Shown here piece after piece: positions 21,658-27,219 of a stretch of DNA of 64,000 nucleotides (its first letter is position 1; every line of letters starts with the position of its first letter). The DNA is taken from contig CANBOV010000002.1 of the NCBI GenBank assembly GCA_947371275.1, forward strand, positions 1 to 64,000, in the 5' to 3' direction. Source of the DNA: Flavobacteriaceae bacterium. GTDB lineage: Bacteria > Bacteroidota > Bacteroidia > Flavobacteriales > Flavobacteriaceae. Under the pieces are notes generated by a model, which did not search any database, had not been told where the DNA came from, and saw only the letters and a list, made by a program, of their open reading frames with translations. The position numbers and the translations under genes are program-made.

Positions 21658-22584
21658 ATGTCCATTAAAGCATTACTACATAAACCGGCCCTCACTCATG
21701 AAAAGTCTCTAAAGACTTTGGTTGAAAACCGAACTATTTTTTCATTAGACCATTGTGAACTAAATATTTTTGAAACCTATCAAAAGTCGGATTTGGTCCC
21801 TTTGAAGTTTAATGACTTGGTGGTTACAAGTATGCTACGTGGTAAAAAAGTAATGCATCTTTTTGACGAACCACAATTTGAATACCTTCCTGGAGAAACG
21901 GTAATTGTTCCTTCAAACGTGGAGATGAAAATTGATTTCCCTGAAGCATCCAAAGATAATCCTACTCAATGCATTGCGCTAGCTATCGACAACAATATCA
22001 TCACCAATACGCTGGATTTTCTTAATGAAAAGTATCCTAAAGAAGGGAAAAGTAATTTATGGAAATTAGACCATGAGAATTATTTCTTTTATAATAATGT
22101 TGAATTGGCCGCTACAATCAATAAACTGATTAAGGAATGTATGGGTGATTCAATTACTAAAGATGCCATAGCTGATTTAACCTTGCAAGAGCTCATTATC
22201 CGCATTATTCAAACTCAAACTGCAAAACGATTTGAAAATGAAAAACTCATCGATAGCAACAGTCCTATTTCGCCTTCCATAGCGTTTATCAAAAATAATA
22301 TACGGGAGACCATAAATTTAAAAGACTTGAGCGATAAAGCTTGTATGAGTACCACTTCTTTTTATCGCTATTTTAAAAGGGAATTAGGCATGAGTCCTAT
22401 TGAGTACATATTGAATGAAAAAATAAAATATGCCAAGAAACTCCTAAGCAATCCAAAGATTCATGTAAATGAAGTATCTTATGCTACAGGGTTTGAAGAC
22501 TGTAACTACTTTATAAGACTTTTTAAAAAATATGAGGGTGTTACGCCAAAGCAATACCAATTAATGAATTATACTTCTCATTAA
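21658..22584 (+). CDS. AraC family transcriptional regulator
   Basis: A 308-aa regulator. The N-terminal ~190 residues form a cupin-like sensing domain of the AraC_N type (YLPGETVIVPSNVEMKIDFPEA). The C-terminal ~100 residues carry the double helix-turn-helix: LKDLSDKACMSTTSFYRYFKRELGMSPIEYI, then VNEVSYATGFEDCNYFIRLFKKYEGVTPKQYQ. Its stop codon overlaps that of the convergent DUF779 gene by 4 bp. The likely target is the aldB-DUF779 transcription unit, where tandem 10-bp direct repeats spaced 21 bp apart lie upstream of the promoter. The ligand may be an aldehyde or alcohol (inference). Confidence 0.92.
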   Translation: MSIKALLHKPALTHEKSLKTLVENRTIFSLDHCELNIFETYQKSDLVPLKFNDLVVTSMLRGKKVMHLFDEPQFEYLPGETVIVPSNVEMKIDFPEASKDNPTQCIALAIDNNIITNTLDFLNEKYPKEGKSNLWKLDHENYFFYNNVELAATINKLIKECMGDSITKDAIADLTLQELIIRIIQTQTAKRFENEKLIDSNSPISPSIAFIKNNIRETINLKDLSDKACMSTTSFYRYFKRELGMSPIEYILNEKIKYAKKLLSNPKIHVNEVSYATGFEDCNYFIRLFKKYEGVTPKQYQLMNYTSH

Positions 22585-22958
22585 TCATAAGTATTAAAGG
22601 TAACAGGGTCTAACAGTTCCAACTCTTCAGGAGTAAATAATCGGTATTTAATGATGAACGTTTTTCCGTAGGGAGTTTCTAGCGAAAAGCCACCTGCTCC
22701 TATCCCATCCATTACATCTAATGTAAAATGAGCATTTTTCCAGTATTCGTATAAATCTTTATCAAGCCAGAAATCAAAACCATCTACTTGTCCTATACAT
22801 ACATCGCCCGTTCTTGTATAAAAACCCCCTTTTTCAAAACACTGAGGTTGGGTTCCTTCACAGCAACCACCCGCTTGGTAAAACATTAAATCTCCGAATT
22901 TAGCTTTAAGCATGGCAATGACAGCGAATGCTTCTTGAGTAACCTCTATTCTTTTCAT
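22581..22958 (-). CDS. DUF779 domain-containing protein
   Basis: A 125-aa protein of the DUF779 family, known to co-occur with aldehyde/alcohol dehydrogenase genes but without an assigned function. It is Cys-rich near the middle (AGGCCEGTQPQC, then GDVCIGQVDGFDFWLD), which could bind a metal or react with aldehydes. It lies 83 bp downstream of the AldB-type dehydrogenase on the same strand and is probably cotranscribed with it. The spacer holds a weak ACCGCA/TGCGGT inverted repeat. No signal peptide, so cytoplasmic. Confidence 0.9.
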   Translation of the reverse strand: MKRIEVTQEAFAVIAMLKAKFGDLMFYQAGGCCEGTQPQCFEKGGFYTRTGDVCIGQVDGFDFWLDKDLYEYWKNAHFTLDVMDGIGAGGFSLETPYGKTFIIKYRLFTPEELELLDPVTFNTYD

Positions 22959-23041: not shown

Positions 23042-24547
23042 TTAAAAGAAACCTAATTTGCTTTTACTATAAGAAATTAACATGTTTTTTGTTTGACGGT
23101 AATGTGCCAGCATCATTTTGTGATTCTCTCTTCCTATACCCGATTGTTTATAACCCCCAAATGGTGCACCTGCTGGATAGGCATGGTAGCTGTTTACCCA
23201 TACCCTACCTGCATGAATTGCTCTAGGTACTTGGTACAATTCATGAGCATCACGTGTCCAAACTCCGGCTCCTAAACCATAAAGTGTATCATTAGCGATT
23301 GCGATTGCTTCTTCTGTAGTCTTAAAAGTCGTAACTGCTAGAACTGGTCCAAATATTTCTTCTTGAAAAATTCTCATCTTATTTGTTCCTTTGAATACAG
23401 TAGGTTTAATATAGTAACCTGTATCTAAATCGCCTCCTAATTTATTTTCATCACCACCAATTAACAATTCGGCACCTTCTTCCTTTCCTAAATTAATATA
23501 GGACATGATTTTATCTCTTTGTACTTTGGAAGCTTGGGCTCCCATCATTACGGTTGGGTCTAAAGGATTTCCTGTTTTTACCGCTGCTACTCTTTCAATA
23601 ACTCTTTCAATAAATTGATCATAAATATCTTCATGTACCAATAAACGCGAAGGACAAGTACAAACCTCACCTTGGTTTAAACAATACAGAACAGCACCTT
23701 CAATAGCTTTATCTAAGAATTCATCATCAGCATCCATTACAGATGGAAAGAAAATGTTCGGTGATTTACCTCCAAGTTCTAAGGTTACTGGAACAATATT
23801 TTCGGTAGCATATTGCATTACCATTCTTCCAGTAGCTGTTGAACCTGTAAAGGCCGCTTTAGCCACTTTTGGATTTGTTACTAAAGCTCTTCCTAACTCT
23901 GAACCAAAACCATTTACAACATTAATAACTCCTGCAGGAATAATATTTCCGATTAATTCCATTAATATCATAATTGAAACTGGAGTGTTTTCAGCAGGTT
24001 TCAATACCACACAGTTTCCTGCTGCTAGCGCTGGTGCTAGTTTCCAAACAGCCATTAAAATAGGGAAGTTCCATGGAATGATTTGCGCAATTACTCCGAG
24101 TGGTTCATGTACAATCAAAGAAACAGTAGTTTCATCTAACTCACTAACAGAACCTTCTTCCGCTCTAATTACCCCTGCAAAATAACGGAAATGATCAATA
24201 GCTAATGGCAAATCAGCTGCTAAAGTTTCTCGAACAGCCTTACCGTTATCTACTGTTTCAGCTGCTGCTAAATAGGCTAAGTTATCTTCCATCACTTGAG
24301 CGATTTTGATTAGCATATTACTTCTGTCAGTAACTGAAACTTTACTCCATGTTTTGAATGCTTCGTAAGCCGCGTCAACTGCTAAGGTTAAATCTTCTTT
24401 ATTTGAATGTGCTGCTTTGGTAAACACTTTTCCGTCTACCGGAGACACTACGTCAAAATACTGTCCTGATGCTGGTGGAACAAATTTTCCTCCAATGTAA
24501 TTATCGTATTTATCTTTAAATGTGGGTCTTTGAATTAAATTACTCAT
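23042..24547 (-). CDS. aldB: Aldehyde dehydrogenase, AldB/ExaC (AcoD) type
   Basis: NAD(P)-dependent oxidation of acetaldehyde and other short aldehydes to acids. From memory the sequence closely parallels E. coli AldB across its length. Shared stretches are AADLPLAIDHFRYFAGVIRA, LELGGKSPNIFF with the general-base Glu (~257), NQGEVCTCPSRLLV with the nucleophilic Cys (~295), and the AHYRQTKNMLISYS C-terminus. I choose the ATG at 24547 (501 aa), where MSNLIQRPTFKDKYDNYIGG begins. The track start lies past a -7 box. Regulation by the nearby AraC protein is suggested by direct repeats at 24599-24629. Gene name rests on similarity alone. Confidence 0.93.
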   Translation of the reverse strand: MSNLIQRPTFKDKYDNYIGGKFVPPASGQYFDVVSPVDGKVFTKAAHSNKEDLTLAVDAAYEAFKTWSKVSVTDRSNMLIKIAQVMEDNLAYLAAAETVDNGKAVRETLAADLPLAIDHFRYFAGVIRAEEGSVSELDETTVSLIVHEPLGVIAQIIPWNFPILMAVWKLAPALAAGNCVVLKPAENTPVSIMILMELIGNIIPAGVINVVNGFGSELGRALVTNPKVAKAAFTGSTATGRMVMQYATENIVPVTLELGGKSPNIFFPSVMDADDEFLDKAIEGAVLYCLNQGEVCTCPSRLLVHEDIYDQFIERVIERVAAVKTGNPLDPTVMMGAQASKVQRDKIMSYINLGKEEGAELLIGGDENKLGGDLDTGYYIKPTVFKGTNKMRIFQEEIFGPVLAVTTFKTTEEAIAIANDTLYGLGAGVWTRDAHELYQVPRAIHAGRVWVNSYHAYPAGAPFGGYKQSGIGRENHKMMLAHYRQTKNMLISYSKSKLGFF

Positions 24548-24569
24548 AGTTTTAAATTTTTGATTTATC

Positions 24570-24577
24570 CAAAAGTA
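24570..24577 (-). promoter_or_regulatory. Candidate -7 box of aldB
   Basis: On the minus strand this reads TACTTTTG, matching TAnnTTTG, 23 bp upstream of the ATG at 24547. No TTTG is present at the -33 position. The AraC-like repeats begin there instead, as expected of an activator-dependent promoter. Confidence 0.45.
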
Positions 24578-24598
24578 CCTCCTATACTGTTTTGAGAA

Positions 24599-24629
24599 TA
24601 GCACATTTCAAGCAAATTATAGCACATTT
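24599..24629 (-). promoter_or_regulatory. Candidate AraC-family operator: two 10-bp direct repeats
   Basis: TAGCACATTT occurs at 24599-24608 and again exactly at 24620-24629 (plus-strand reading), a 21-bp period or two helical turns. Its inner edge lies 21 bp from the aldB -7 box, over the -33 position. Same-face direct repeats overlapping the promoter are the classic layout for a class II AraC/XylS activator. Confidence 0.55.
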
Positions 24630-24798: not shown

Positions 24799-27219
24799 AT
24801 GAGAATTTCATACAATTGGTTAAAACAATTCATTAAAATAGATTTAAAATCAGAAGAAACTTCGGCAATCCTTACTGATTTAGGATTGGAAGTAGAGGTG
24901 GTTGAGAAATACCAATCGGTTCGTGGTGGTCTTGAAGGAGTCGTTGTAGGTCATGTGTTAAGTTGTGAAAAACATCCTGATGCCGATCGCTTGAAAATTA
25001 CTAAAGTAGACTTGGGAGATGGAACACCTGTACAAATTGTTTGCGGAGCTGCTAATGTTGCTGCAGGCCAAAAAGTTCCTGTTGCTACTATTGGCACAAA
25101 ATTGTTTGACAAGGAAGGGGTAGAATTTGAAATCAAAAAAGGAAAAATTCGAGGACAAGAAAGTCATGGTATGATTTGTGCTGAAGACGAATTAGGATTG
25201 GGTACCAGTCATGAAGGAATAATGGTATTGGATGACAAATTGAAACCAGGGACTCCTTGCGCTAAAGTATTCAATATTGAAAATGATGAAGTATTTGAAA
25301 TTGGGCTTACCCCCAACCGAGCGGATGCGATGTCTCATTATGGTGTAGCGCGAGATTTAAGAGCAAGTCTACTTCAAAAAAACAGCAATATCGAATTGAT
25401 TACCCCATCGGTAAGTACGTTTCGTATAGACAAAAGAACATTGAAGATTGACGTTGATGTTAAGGATAATAAATTAGCTCCAAGATATTGTGGGGTTACA
25501 CTTTCCGGGATAACGGTAAAACCATCTCCTGATTGGTTACAAAACCGCTTAAAAGCCATTGGACTTACCCCTAAAAACAATATTGTTGACGTTACTAATT
25601 ATATCCTTCATGATTTAGGACAACCGTTGCATGCATTTGACGCCTCTAAAATTAATGGGAAAATCATCGTTAAGACATTGGCTGCTGGCACAAAATTCAC
25701 CACGCTAGATGATGTTGAAAGAAGCTTACATGAAGAAGACTTAATGATTTGTGATGAAAAAGGACCGCTTTGTATGGCAGGTGTATTTGGAGGGAAAAAT
25801 TCGGGAGTAACTGAAACCACAAATACGATATTTTTAGAAAGCGCTTATTTCAATCCCGTATCTGTTCGTAAAACCGCTAAGAGACATGCATTAAACACTG
25901 ATGCTTCTTTCCGTTTTGAAAGAGGTATTGACCCTAATATTACGGAATTTGCTTTAAAACGTGCTGCTTTATTGATTAAAGAAATAACAGGAGGTGAAAT
26001 CACATCAGATATCATCGATATCTACCCTAAGGCCATTGAAGACTTCCGCGTGTTTTTGAACTTTGATAAAACAACTAAACTGATAGGCCAAGAATTATCA
26101 AAAGAAACAATTAAGAAAATTTTGGCTTCATTAGACATTAAAGTGACAACTGTTTCTGATGCTGGCTTAGGATTAATCATTCCGTCGTATCGAGTAGATG
26201 TGCAGAGAGAAATTGATGTAATTGAAGAAATCTTGCGGGTGTATGGTTATAACAACATCAATTTTACCAAAAAATTAAATGCTACGGTGGCTAACTCAGC
26301 TCGTACCGAAGATTACAAAATACAAAACATTATTGCTGCGCAATTGAATGCCAAAGGGTTTCATGAAATGATGGCCAATTCATTAACCACTCCTGATTAT
26401 GTGAAGTTAACAAACATGCTTAAAGAAGAATATAACGTAATGATGTTGAATCCGTTGAGTAATGATTTGTCGGTGATGCGTCAGTCTTTGTTATTTTCTG
26501 GATTAGAAGCAGTGTCTTATAACATCAACCGCAGAAATGGGGATTTGAAATTATTTGAATTTGGTAAGACCTACCACAAATTACCGTCGGGGTATGATGA
26601 GCCTAAGCACTTGACTTTATTTGTTTCGGGTGACCGTTCGGAAGAGAGTTGGACTTTGAATCAAAAGCCAACAGACTTCTTCTTATTCAAAGGTTACGTA
26701 AACAGTATCTTAGAGCGATTGGGCATTTGTAAAGTCCAAAACAAGCCTTTATCCTCTGATGTATTTGCCGAAGGAATGGCTATTGCTTGCGGTCAAGATA
26801 CTTTGGTAGAATTTGGCACTGTAAAGAAATCAATATTGAAACATTTTGACATCAAGCAAGAGGTATTCTATGCAGATTTCAACTGGAACTTACTATTGAA
26901 ATTATTATCTACTAAAATAAAATTTGTTGAATTGCCAAAATATCCAGAAGTGCGCCGGGATTTAGCGCTACTGGTTGATGAAGCGGTTGCGTTTGAATCC
27001 ATTTATAGTATTGCGCGTCAAACCGAAAAATCGTTATTGAAAGACGTGAATTTATTTGATGTATACCAAGGGAAAAACCTTCCAGAAGGCAAGAAGTCGT
27101 ATGCTGTGAGTTTCACCTTGCAAGACACTACAAAAACCTTAACAGAGGAGCAAATTGATAAAATCATGAACAAGCTTCAAAAGAATATGGAAAACGAACT
27201 GGGTGCCAGTTTACGATAA
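24799..27219 (+). CDS. pheT: Phenylalanine--tRNA ligase beta subunit
   Basis: Beta chain of the heterotetrameric PheRS. The 806 aa show all expected domains. There is an N-terminal EMAP/tRNA-binding domain (VVGHVLSCEKHPDADRLKITKV, ~50-72) and B3/B4 editing domains. B5 modules and the catalytic-like core include FRFERGIDPNITEFALKRAA. The C-terminal ferredoxin-fold anticodon-binding domain begins near YPEVRRDLALLVDE. The alpha subunit (pheS) is not in the window, so the subunit genes are unlinked here. A strong bidirectional hairpin follows the stop codon. Confidence 0.98.
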   Translation: MRISYNWLKQFIKIDLKSEETSAILTDLGLEVEVVEKYQSVRGGLEGVVVGHVLSCEKHPDADRLKITKVDLGDGTPVQIVCGAANVAAGQKVPVATIGTKLFDKEGVEFEIKKGKIRGQESHGMICAEDELGLGTSHEGIMVLDDKLKPGTPCAKVFNIENDEVFEIGLTPNRADAMSHYGVARDLRASLLQKNSNIELITPSVSTFRIDKRTLKIDVDVKDNKLAPRYCGVTLSGITVKPSPDWLQNRLKAIGLTPKNNIVDVTNYILHDLGQPLHAFDASKINGKIIVKTLAAGTKFTTLDDVERSLHEEDLMICDEKGPLCMAGVFGGKNSGVTETTNTIFLESAYFNPVSVRKTAKRHALNTDASFRFERGIDPNITEFALKRAALLIKEITGGEITSDIIDIYPKAIEDFRVFLNFDKTTKLIGQELSKETIKKILASLDIKVTTVSDAGLGLIIPSYRVDVQREIDVIEEILRVYGYNNINFTKKLNATVANSARTEDYKIQNIIAAQLNAKGFHEMMANSLTTPDYVKLTNMLKEEYNVMMLNPLSNDLSVMRQSLLFSGLEAVSYNINRRNGDLKLFEFGKTYHKLPSGYDEPKHLTLFVSGDRSEESWTLNQKPTDFFLFKGYVNSILERLGICKVQNKPLSSDVFAEGMAIACGQDTLVEFGTVKKSILKHFDIKQEVFYADFNWNLLLKLLSTKIKFVELPKYPEVRRDLALLVDEAVAFESIYSIARQTEKSLLKDVNLFDVYQGKNLPEGKKSYAVSFTLQDTTKTLTEEQIDKIMNKLQKNMENELGASLR

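Follow-up and report, generated by a model that had tools for sequence, protein, structure and literature searches.

The aldB locus and its candidate regulator gene

The analysed window is a stretch of 64,000 nucleotides from a Flavobacteriaceae genome, and the direct repeat considered here lies in the gap between its aldB gene, whose ATG is at 24547 on the minus strand, and pheT, the divergent gene at 24799 on the plus strand. The features of the locus are given below, where n refers to distinct aldB upstream regions and promoter positions are counted from a predicted start near 24565 according to the published numbering for the genus (PMC6847099).

21658-22584, plus strand: AraC-family regulator, the candidate operator-binding protein (PF06719, 2.1e-23; HTH_18, 2.6e-21)
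22581-22958, minus strand: DUF779 protein, on the same strand as aldB and just downstream of it (PF05610, 2.8e-36)
23042-24547, minus strand: aldB/exaC-like aldehyde dehydrogenase, the candidate regulated gene (Aldedh, 1.5e-161)
24570-24577, minus strand: -7 box TACTTTTG (TAnnTTTG), starting 21 nt past the core of the proximal half-site
24596-24604, minus strand: proximal half-site RTGCTATTC (GTGCTATTC), core at 24599-24604, approximately -39 to -34, in the -33 region
24613-24614, minus strand: second box TG of the distal half-site, approximately -49/-48 (T 99%, G 99%, n = 126)
24620-24625, minus strand: distal half-site core RTGCTA (here GTGCTA), approximately -60 to -55 (T, G, C and T invariant, R and A nearly so, n = 126)
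24599-24629, no strand assigned: direct repeat as first reported from the sequence letters

The aldB product scores 863 bits against the NCBIfam ExaC model, slightly below the cut-off of 900. The DUF779 protein carries a cysteine-rich motif, GGCCEGTQPQC, and DUF779 is tied to ExaC-like aldehyde dehydrogenases; no convincing relative of the protein was found in the PDB, and almost nothing on DUF779 in the open-licence literature. The AraC-family gene, which the first-pass annotation had placed in the same locus, is indeed found about 2 kb away from the repeat, on the far side of the DUF779 gene, the two genes being convergent. Its product matches HTH_AraC in two stretches, giving two HTH motifs in the C-terminal domain, and the C-terminal part has PDB matches to the AraC and MarA DNA-binding domains. 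The separate N-terminal sensor/dimerisation domain is of the AraC_N type (PF06719, residues 34-189), in which 117 orthologs show no variation at Cys33 and Cys105 and very little at Cys161.

The direct repeat and the promoter

The 10-bp direct repeat with a 21-bp period is present as initially described, with the unit TAGCACATTT at 24599-24608 and 24620-24629, and the identity extends to 11 bp when the preceding A is counted (ATAGCACATTT at 24598-24608 and 24619-24629, 21 bp from start to start). In the direction of aldB the unit reads AAATGTGCTAT, and AAATGTGCTATAATTTGCTTGAAATGTGCTATTC is followed after 18 nt by the -7 box TACTTTTG (24577-24570). The tandem pair of TAGCACATTT occurs only once in the 2.84-Mb genome. 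As a bare repeat it is statistically unremarkable, the window holding 19 pairs of exact repeats, 10 bp or longer and spaced 11-40 apart, against a mean of about 3.5 in first-order simulations; its reality rests on conservation, and it is for that reason, rather than for the repeat statistics of the window, that it is judged real.

The -7 box matches the Flavobacterium consensus element TAHHTTTG, which has its T at -12 (PMC6847099); in that numbering the proximal core spans -39 to -34, whereas -60 to -55 is taken up by the distal core, whose coordinates were derived from a pattern match at 24599-24625. The repeat thus lies upstream of the -7 box as had been claimed, although not immediately so, as 21 nt separate the box from the nearer half-site. 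The claimed lack of a -33 TTTG is likewise correct in that none is found at the canonical -33 spacing from the aldB -7 box in the window, yet it is uninformative, as F. johnsoniae promoters generally show little -33 signal (PMC6847099). The absence fits a class II promoter but is, for the same reason, weak evidence for one.

Conservation upstream of aldB

The comparison covers 126 distinct aldB upstream regions, mainly from Flavobacterium and from MAG-rich genome sets. A first set of 51 loci was retrieved through DUF779, an AraC protein search gave the orthologs in 300 genomes of the genus, from which 80 and then 9 further regions were drawn, and 14 regions were located through the motif itself. 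The consensus in the aldB direction is RTGCTAY-N4-TG-N8-RTGCTATTC. Both TGCTA cores have an unvarying T, G and C, and the final A is kept in 96-99% of the regions. The period of the half-sites is 21 bp in 126/126 regions. The distal site is bipartite, with TGCTA followed about 10 bp on, one helical turn beyond the core, by the TG box and a weaker preference for AA next to it; the second box of the proximal site is unconserved, and its TGCTA, invariant or nearly so, continues instead into T (92%), T (84%) and C (61%).

The conservation extends to the position of the operator relative to the promoter. TAnnTTTG begins 21 nt past the operator in 120 of the 126 regions and 22 nt past it in three, and the -7 box is slightly altered in two loci (L045 and L210). 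Between the second half-site and the ATG there are anything from 54 to 67 nt, and the stretch from the operator to about position -20 is unconserved. Since the -7 spacing is fixed while the ATG distance varies and the intervening bases drift, the operator-to-promoter geometry is, judging from these alignments, what selection holds, as would be expected of an activator working with the polymerase. A lack of conservation upstream of orthologous aldB genes had been named beforehand as a ground for rejecting the operator; the proposal withstands this test, as the tandem, its 21-bp period and the 21-nt spacing are kept in all complete upstream regions of genomes with an AraC ortholog and are missing where the ortholog is missing.

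Just upstream of the -7 box many of the 126 regions have a TGAA-like word (T 73%, G 68%, A 73%, A 77%), which lies beyond the operator and is a possible extended promoter element. At the equivalent positions, 24580-24583, the window reads AGGA.

Co-occurrence of the operator and the AraC gene

With AraC orthologs defined by at least 60% identity, the operator is found in 108/108 complete aldB loci that have an ortholog and in 0/19 that do not, counting loci retrieved through DUF779 or AraC and excluding those retrieved through the motif. The sole tabulated exception, L021, was set aside, as its contig starts inside aldB. No tandem operator was found in the 19 aldB loci without an AraC ortholog, seven of which carry an AraC paralog at 36-44% identity. 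The Fisher value for the co-occurrence, 9e-22, overstates the independence of related rows. On the aldB tree the araC gene and the operator each change three times and at the same places, so that, the loci being related, the perfect association comes down to three independent events.

The pairing holds where the genes are no longer adjacent and where the genus is left. In three genomes (G268, G251 and G136; loci L224-L226) aldB keeps the operator although araC is on a separate contig or at a distance of 24-27 kb. Among 301 genomes of the family, mostly of other genera, the operator with the -7 box was found in two genomes outside Flavobacterium, G514 and G563, in both of them before aldB, and an AraC search of the same 301 genomes returned orthologs above 60% in exactly these two (88% and 65%), the remainder reaching at most 44%. 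The seven family genomes with an AraC at 41-44% are without the operator, and the tandem is not shared by the loci of the distant AraC paralogs at 36-44% identity.

Two further groups of loci deserve mention. In three genomes (G219, G245 and G282) aldB is truncated or decayed, DUF779 was not found, and an intact araC and the operator persist; decayed or truncated aldB is seen in L208 (7601-8622), L209 (7582-8620) and L228 (9619-9080), where the operator and the regulator have outlasted the target gene. In the Lacihabitans-type loci L038, L041, L042 and L052, an AraC gene with 43% identity is divergent from aldB and the gap between them holds only single TGCTA-like half-site words, which suggests a related operator of another layout.

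Predicted targets of the regulator

All examined matches to the strict tandem in 300 genomes of the genus lie at aldB, within long ORFs or among tandem arrays with a 21-bp unit. A relaxed pattern matches in 56 of 60 genomes with araC, and its few extra matches are single and non-recurrent. No second recurrent target thus emerged from the strict scan of the 300 genomes or the relaxed scan of the 60, and a wider regulon was rejected. In the genome of the window itself, matches with one and two mismatches are too many to tell from chance. As no second recurrent operator match appeared in these scans, the AraC protein is best called a single-target regulator, with aldB as its only recurrent target found. 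Autoregulation was also considered and rejected, there being no conserved half-site upstream of araC.

The 21-bp tandem arrays consist of TGTGCTA-containing units unrelated to aldB and occur in L084 (about 1501-1700, inside overlapping repetitive ORFs), in L089 (about 1501-1600, outside long ORFs) and in contigs C66 and C272 of G161.

Discussion

The repeat is very probably the operator of the neighbouring AraC_N/HTH_AraC regulator, predicted from the conservation described above to activate the aldB-DUF779 unit in a class II manner. The anatomy of the region, with a 21-bp tandem, a bipartite distal site, a proximal site at the -33 region and rigid spacing to the -7 box, is that of a class II site. 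The class II AraC activator layout initially proposed is therefore supported: the second half-site fills -39 to -34 in the -33 region, and its distance of 21 nt to the -7 box is kept in 120/126 regions. From the same sequences we infer physical binding, activation rather than repression and a class II contact. In such a model two AraC subunits would bind head to tail over approximately -60 to -34, each placing one HTH motif on an RTGCTA core, and the second HTH of the distal subunit would touch the TG box one turn further along. The proximal subunit would be located at about -39 to -34, where region 4 of sigma meets the promoter, and would recruit the RNA polymerase with the Bacteroidota primary sigma factor to the TAnnTTTG -7 box, with aldB and DUF779 together as the target unit. 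Against this model count the small number of independent changes behind the co-occurrence, the lack of a conserved site before araC and the unconserved second box of the proximal half-site.

The same protein could instead bind the repeat as a repressor, or as a ligand-switched repressor and activator, blocking the polymerase at the -33 region. Some AraC proteins do repress without their ligand, the proximal half-site overlaps the -33 region, and occupancy of -60 to -34 would also suit a repressor. However, the site covers neither the -7 box nor the start, its distance from the -7 box is kept to within 1 bp, which a blocker would not need, and no conserved remote third half-site for looping is seen in the aldB upstream regions, so that repression appears improbable. 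It is more improbable still that the operator belongs to a regulator encoded outside the locus and that the AraC gene is a passenger. The two could be co-inherited by linkage, and only three independent changes speak to their association, but unlinking of the genes does not part the operator from AraC (L224-L226), outside Flavobacterium the operator is found, among the 301 family genomes, only in those with an AraC ortholog, and the footprint usual for AraC is a 21-bp tandem (PMC3870299, PMC3878776).

In 87 of the 105 testable loci a divergent pheT gene is no more than 1.5 kb away, and the repeats might be thought to serve it in place of aldB, yet the element from which they keep a fixed distance is the -7 box of aldB. 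A pheT promoter element was ruled out by the 18 loci that keep the operator without an adjacent pheT, and this assignment is accordingly extremely unlikely. A chance repeat in AT-rich intergenic DNA would agree with the unexceptional repeat statistics of the window, but the core, period and spacing conserved over 126 distinct regions rule it out and make its probability practically negligible.

The arrangement resembles araI1-I2 of the Escherichia coli araBAD promoter, where tandem half-sites are 21 bp apart, the proximal one lies at the -35 region and its second box is the poorer. The likeness thus comprises the 21-bp tandem, the placement of the proximal site and its weaker second box; the half-site sequence and the sigma factor are different, and a remote looping site is not seen here. 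Comparative genomics of the AraC-family RhaR motifs in Bacteroides, Bacillales and Enterococcus has predicted 21-bp direct repeats in Bacteroides (PMC3870299). RhaR is likewise an AraC-family regulator with a motif inferred by comparative genomics, but it is another regulator with a multi-gene sugar regulon, whereas here a single aldehyde dehydrogenase target has a fixed -7 spacing. The HTCS motifs of Bacteroides thetaiotaomicron are direct repeats averaging 21 bp apart (PMC3878776), and the HTCS proteins share with the present regulator the AraC-type DNA-binding domain, the approximately 21-bp direct repeats and the phylum; they are membrane sensor kinases for glycans, in contrast to the one-component cytoplasmic protein considered here. 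The E. coli YqhC is an AraC_N-domain AraC protein with a single target, the aldehyde reductases yqhD-dkgA (PMC8249747, PMC8262776). The two proteins share the AraC_N domain, and YqhC is comparable to the present regulator also in its single target and adjacent aldehyde-handling gene. YqhC, however, controls reductases from the yqhC/yqhD spacer, whereas here the target is a dehydrogenase with DUF779 and the regulator is convergent with the operon.

By analogy with YqhC, and given the ExaC-like target, the regulator probably responds to an aldehyde or to its product. A more specific reading, in which the AraC_N protein senses aldehydes by thiol chemistry, with Cys33, Cys105 and Cys161 reacting with aldehydes or their products, and switches on aldB-DUF779 as a dedicated detoxification operon, is rather doubtful; the conservation of these cysteines in the 117 AraC orthologs allows thiol chemistry but does not show it; if true, it would describe a one-regulator, one-promoter aldehyde circuit of Flavobacterium.

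The first-pass annotation had regarded such operators as rarely defined in Flavobacteria. The Flavobacterium example is new, but 21-bp direct-repeat AraC motifs have already been predicted in Bacteroides; the kind is therefore already known, and the novelty is limited to the Flavobacterium regulator and operator. In the open-licence literature no paper was found that links DUF779, aldehyde dehydrogenase and AraC, nor one on a Flavobacterium AraC direct-repeat operator or on the present regulator. The locus provides an operator and regulator pair that is defined at the level of single bases and directly testable in Flavobacterium, where few one-component activator sites have been defined. With its rigid 21-nt spacing between the operator and TAnnTTTG it is a good model for the cooperation of an AraC activator with the divergent sigma factor of the Bacteroidota where a promoter lacks the -33 box. 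The aldB operator and promoter could also serve as a compact inducible promoter for the genus.
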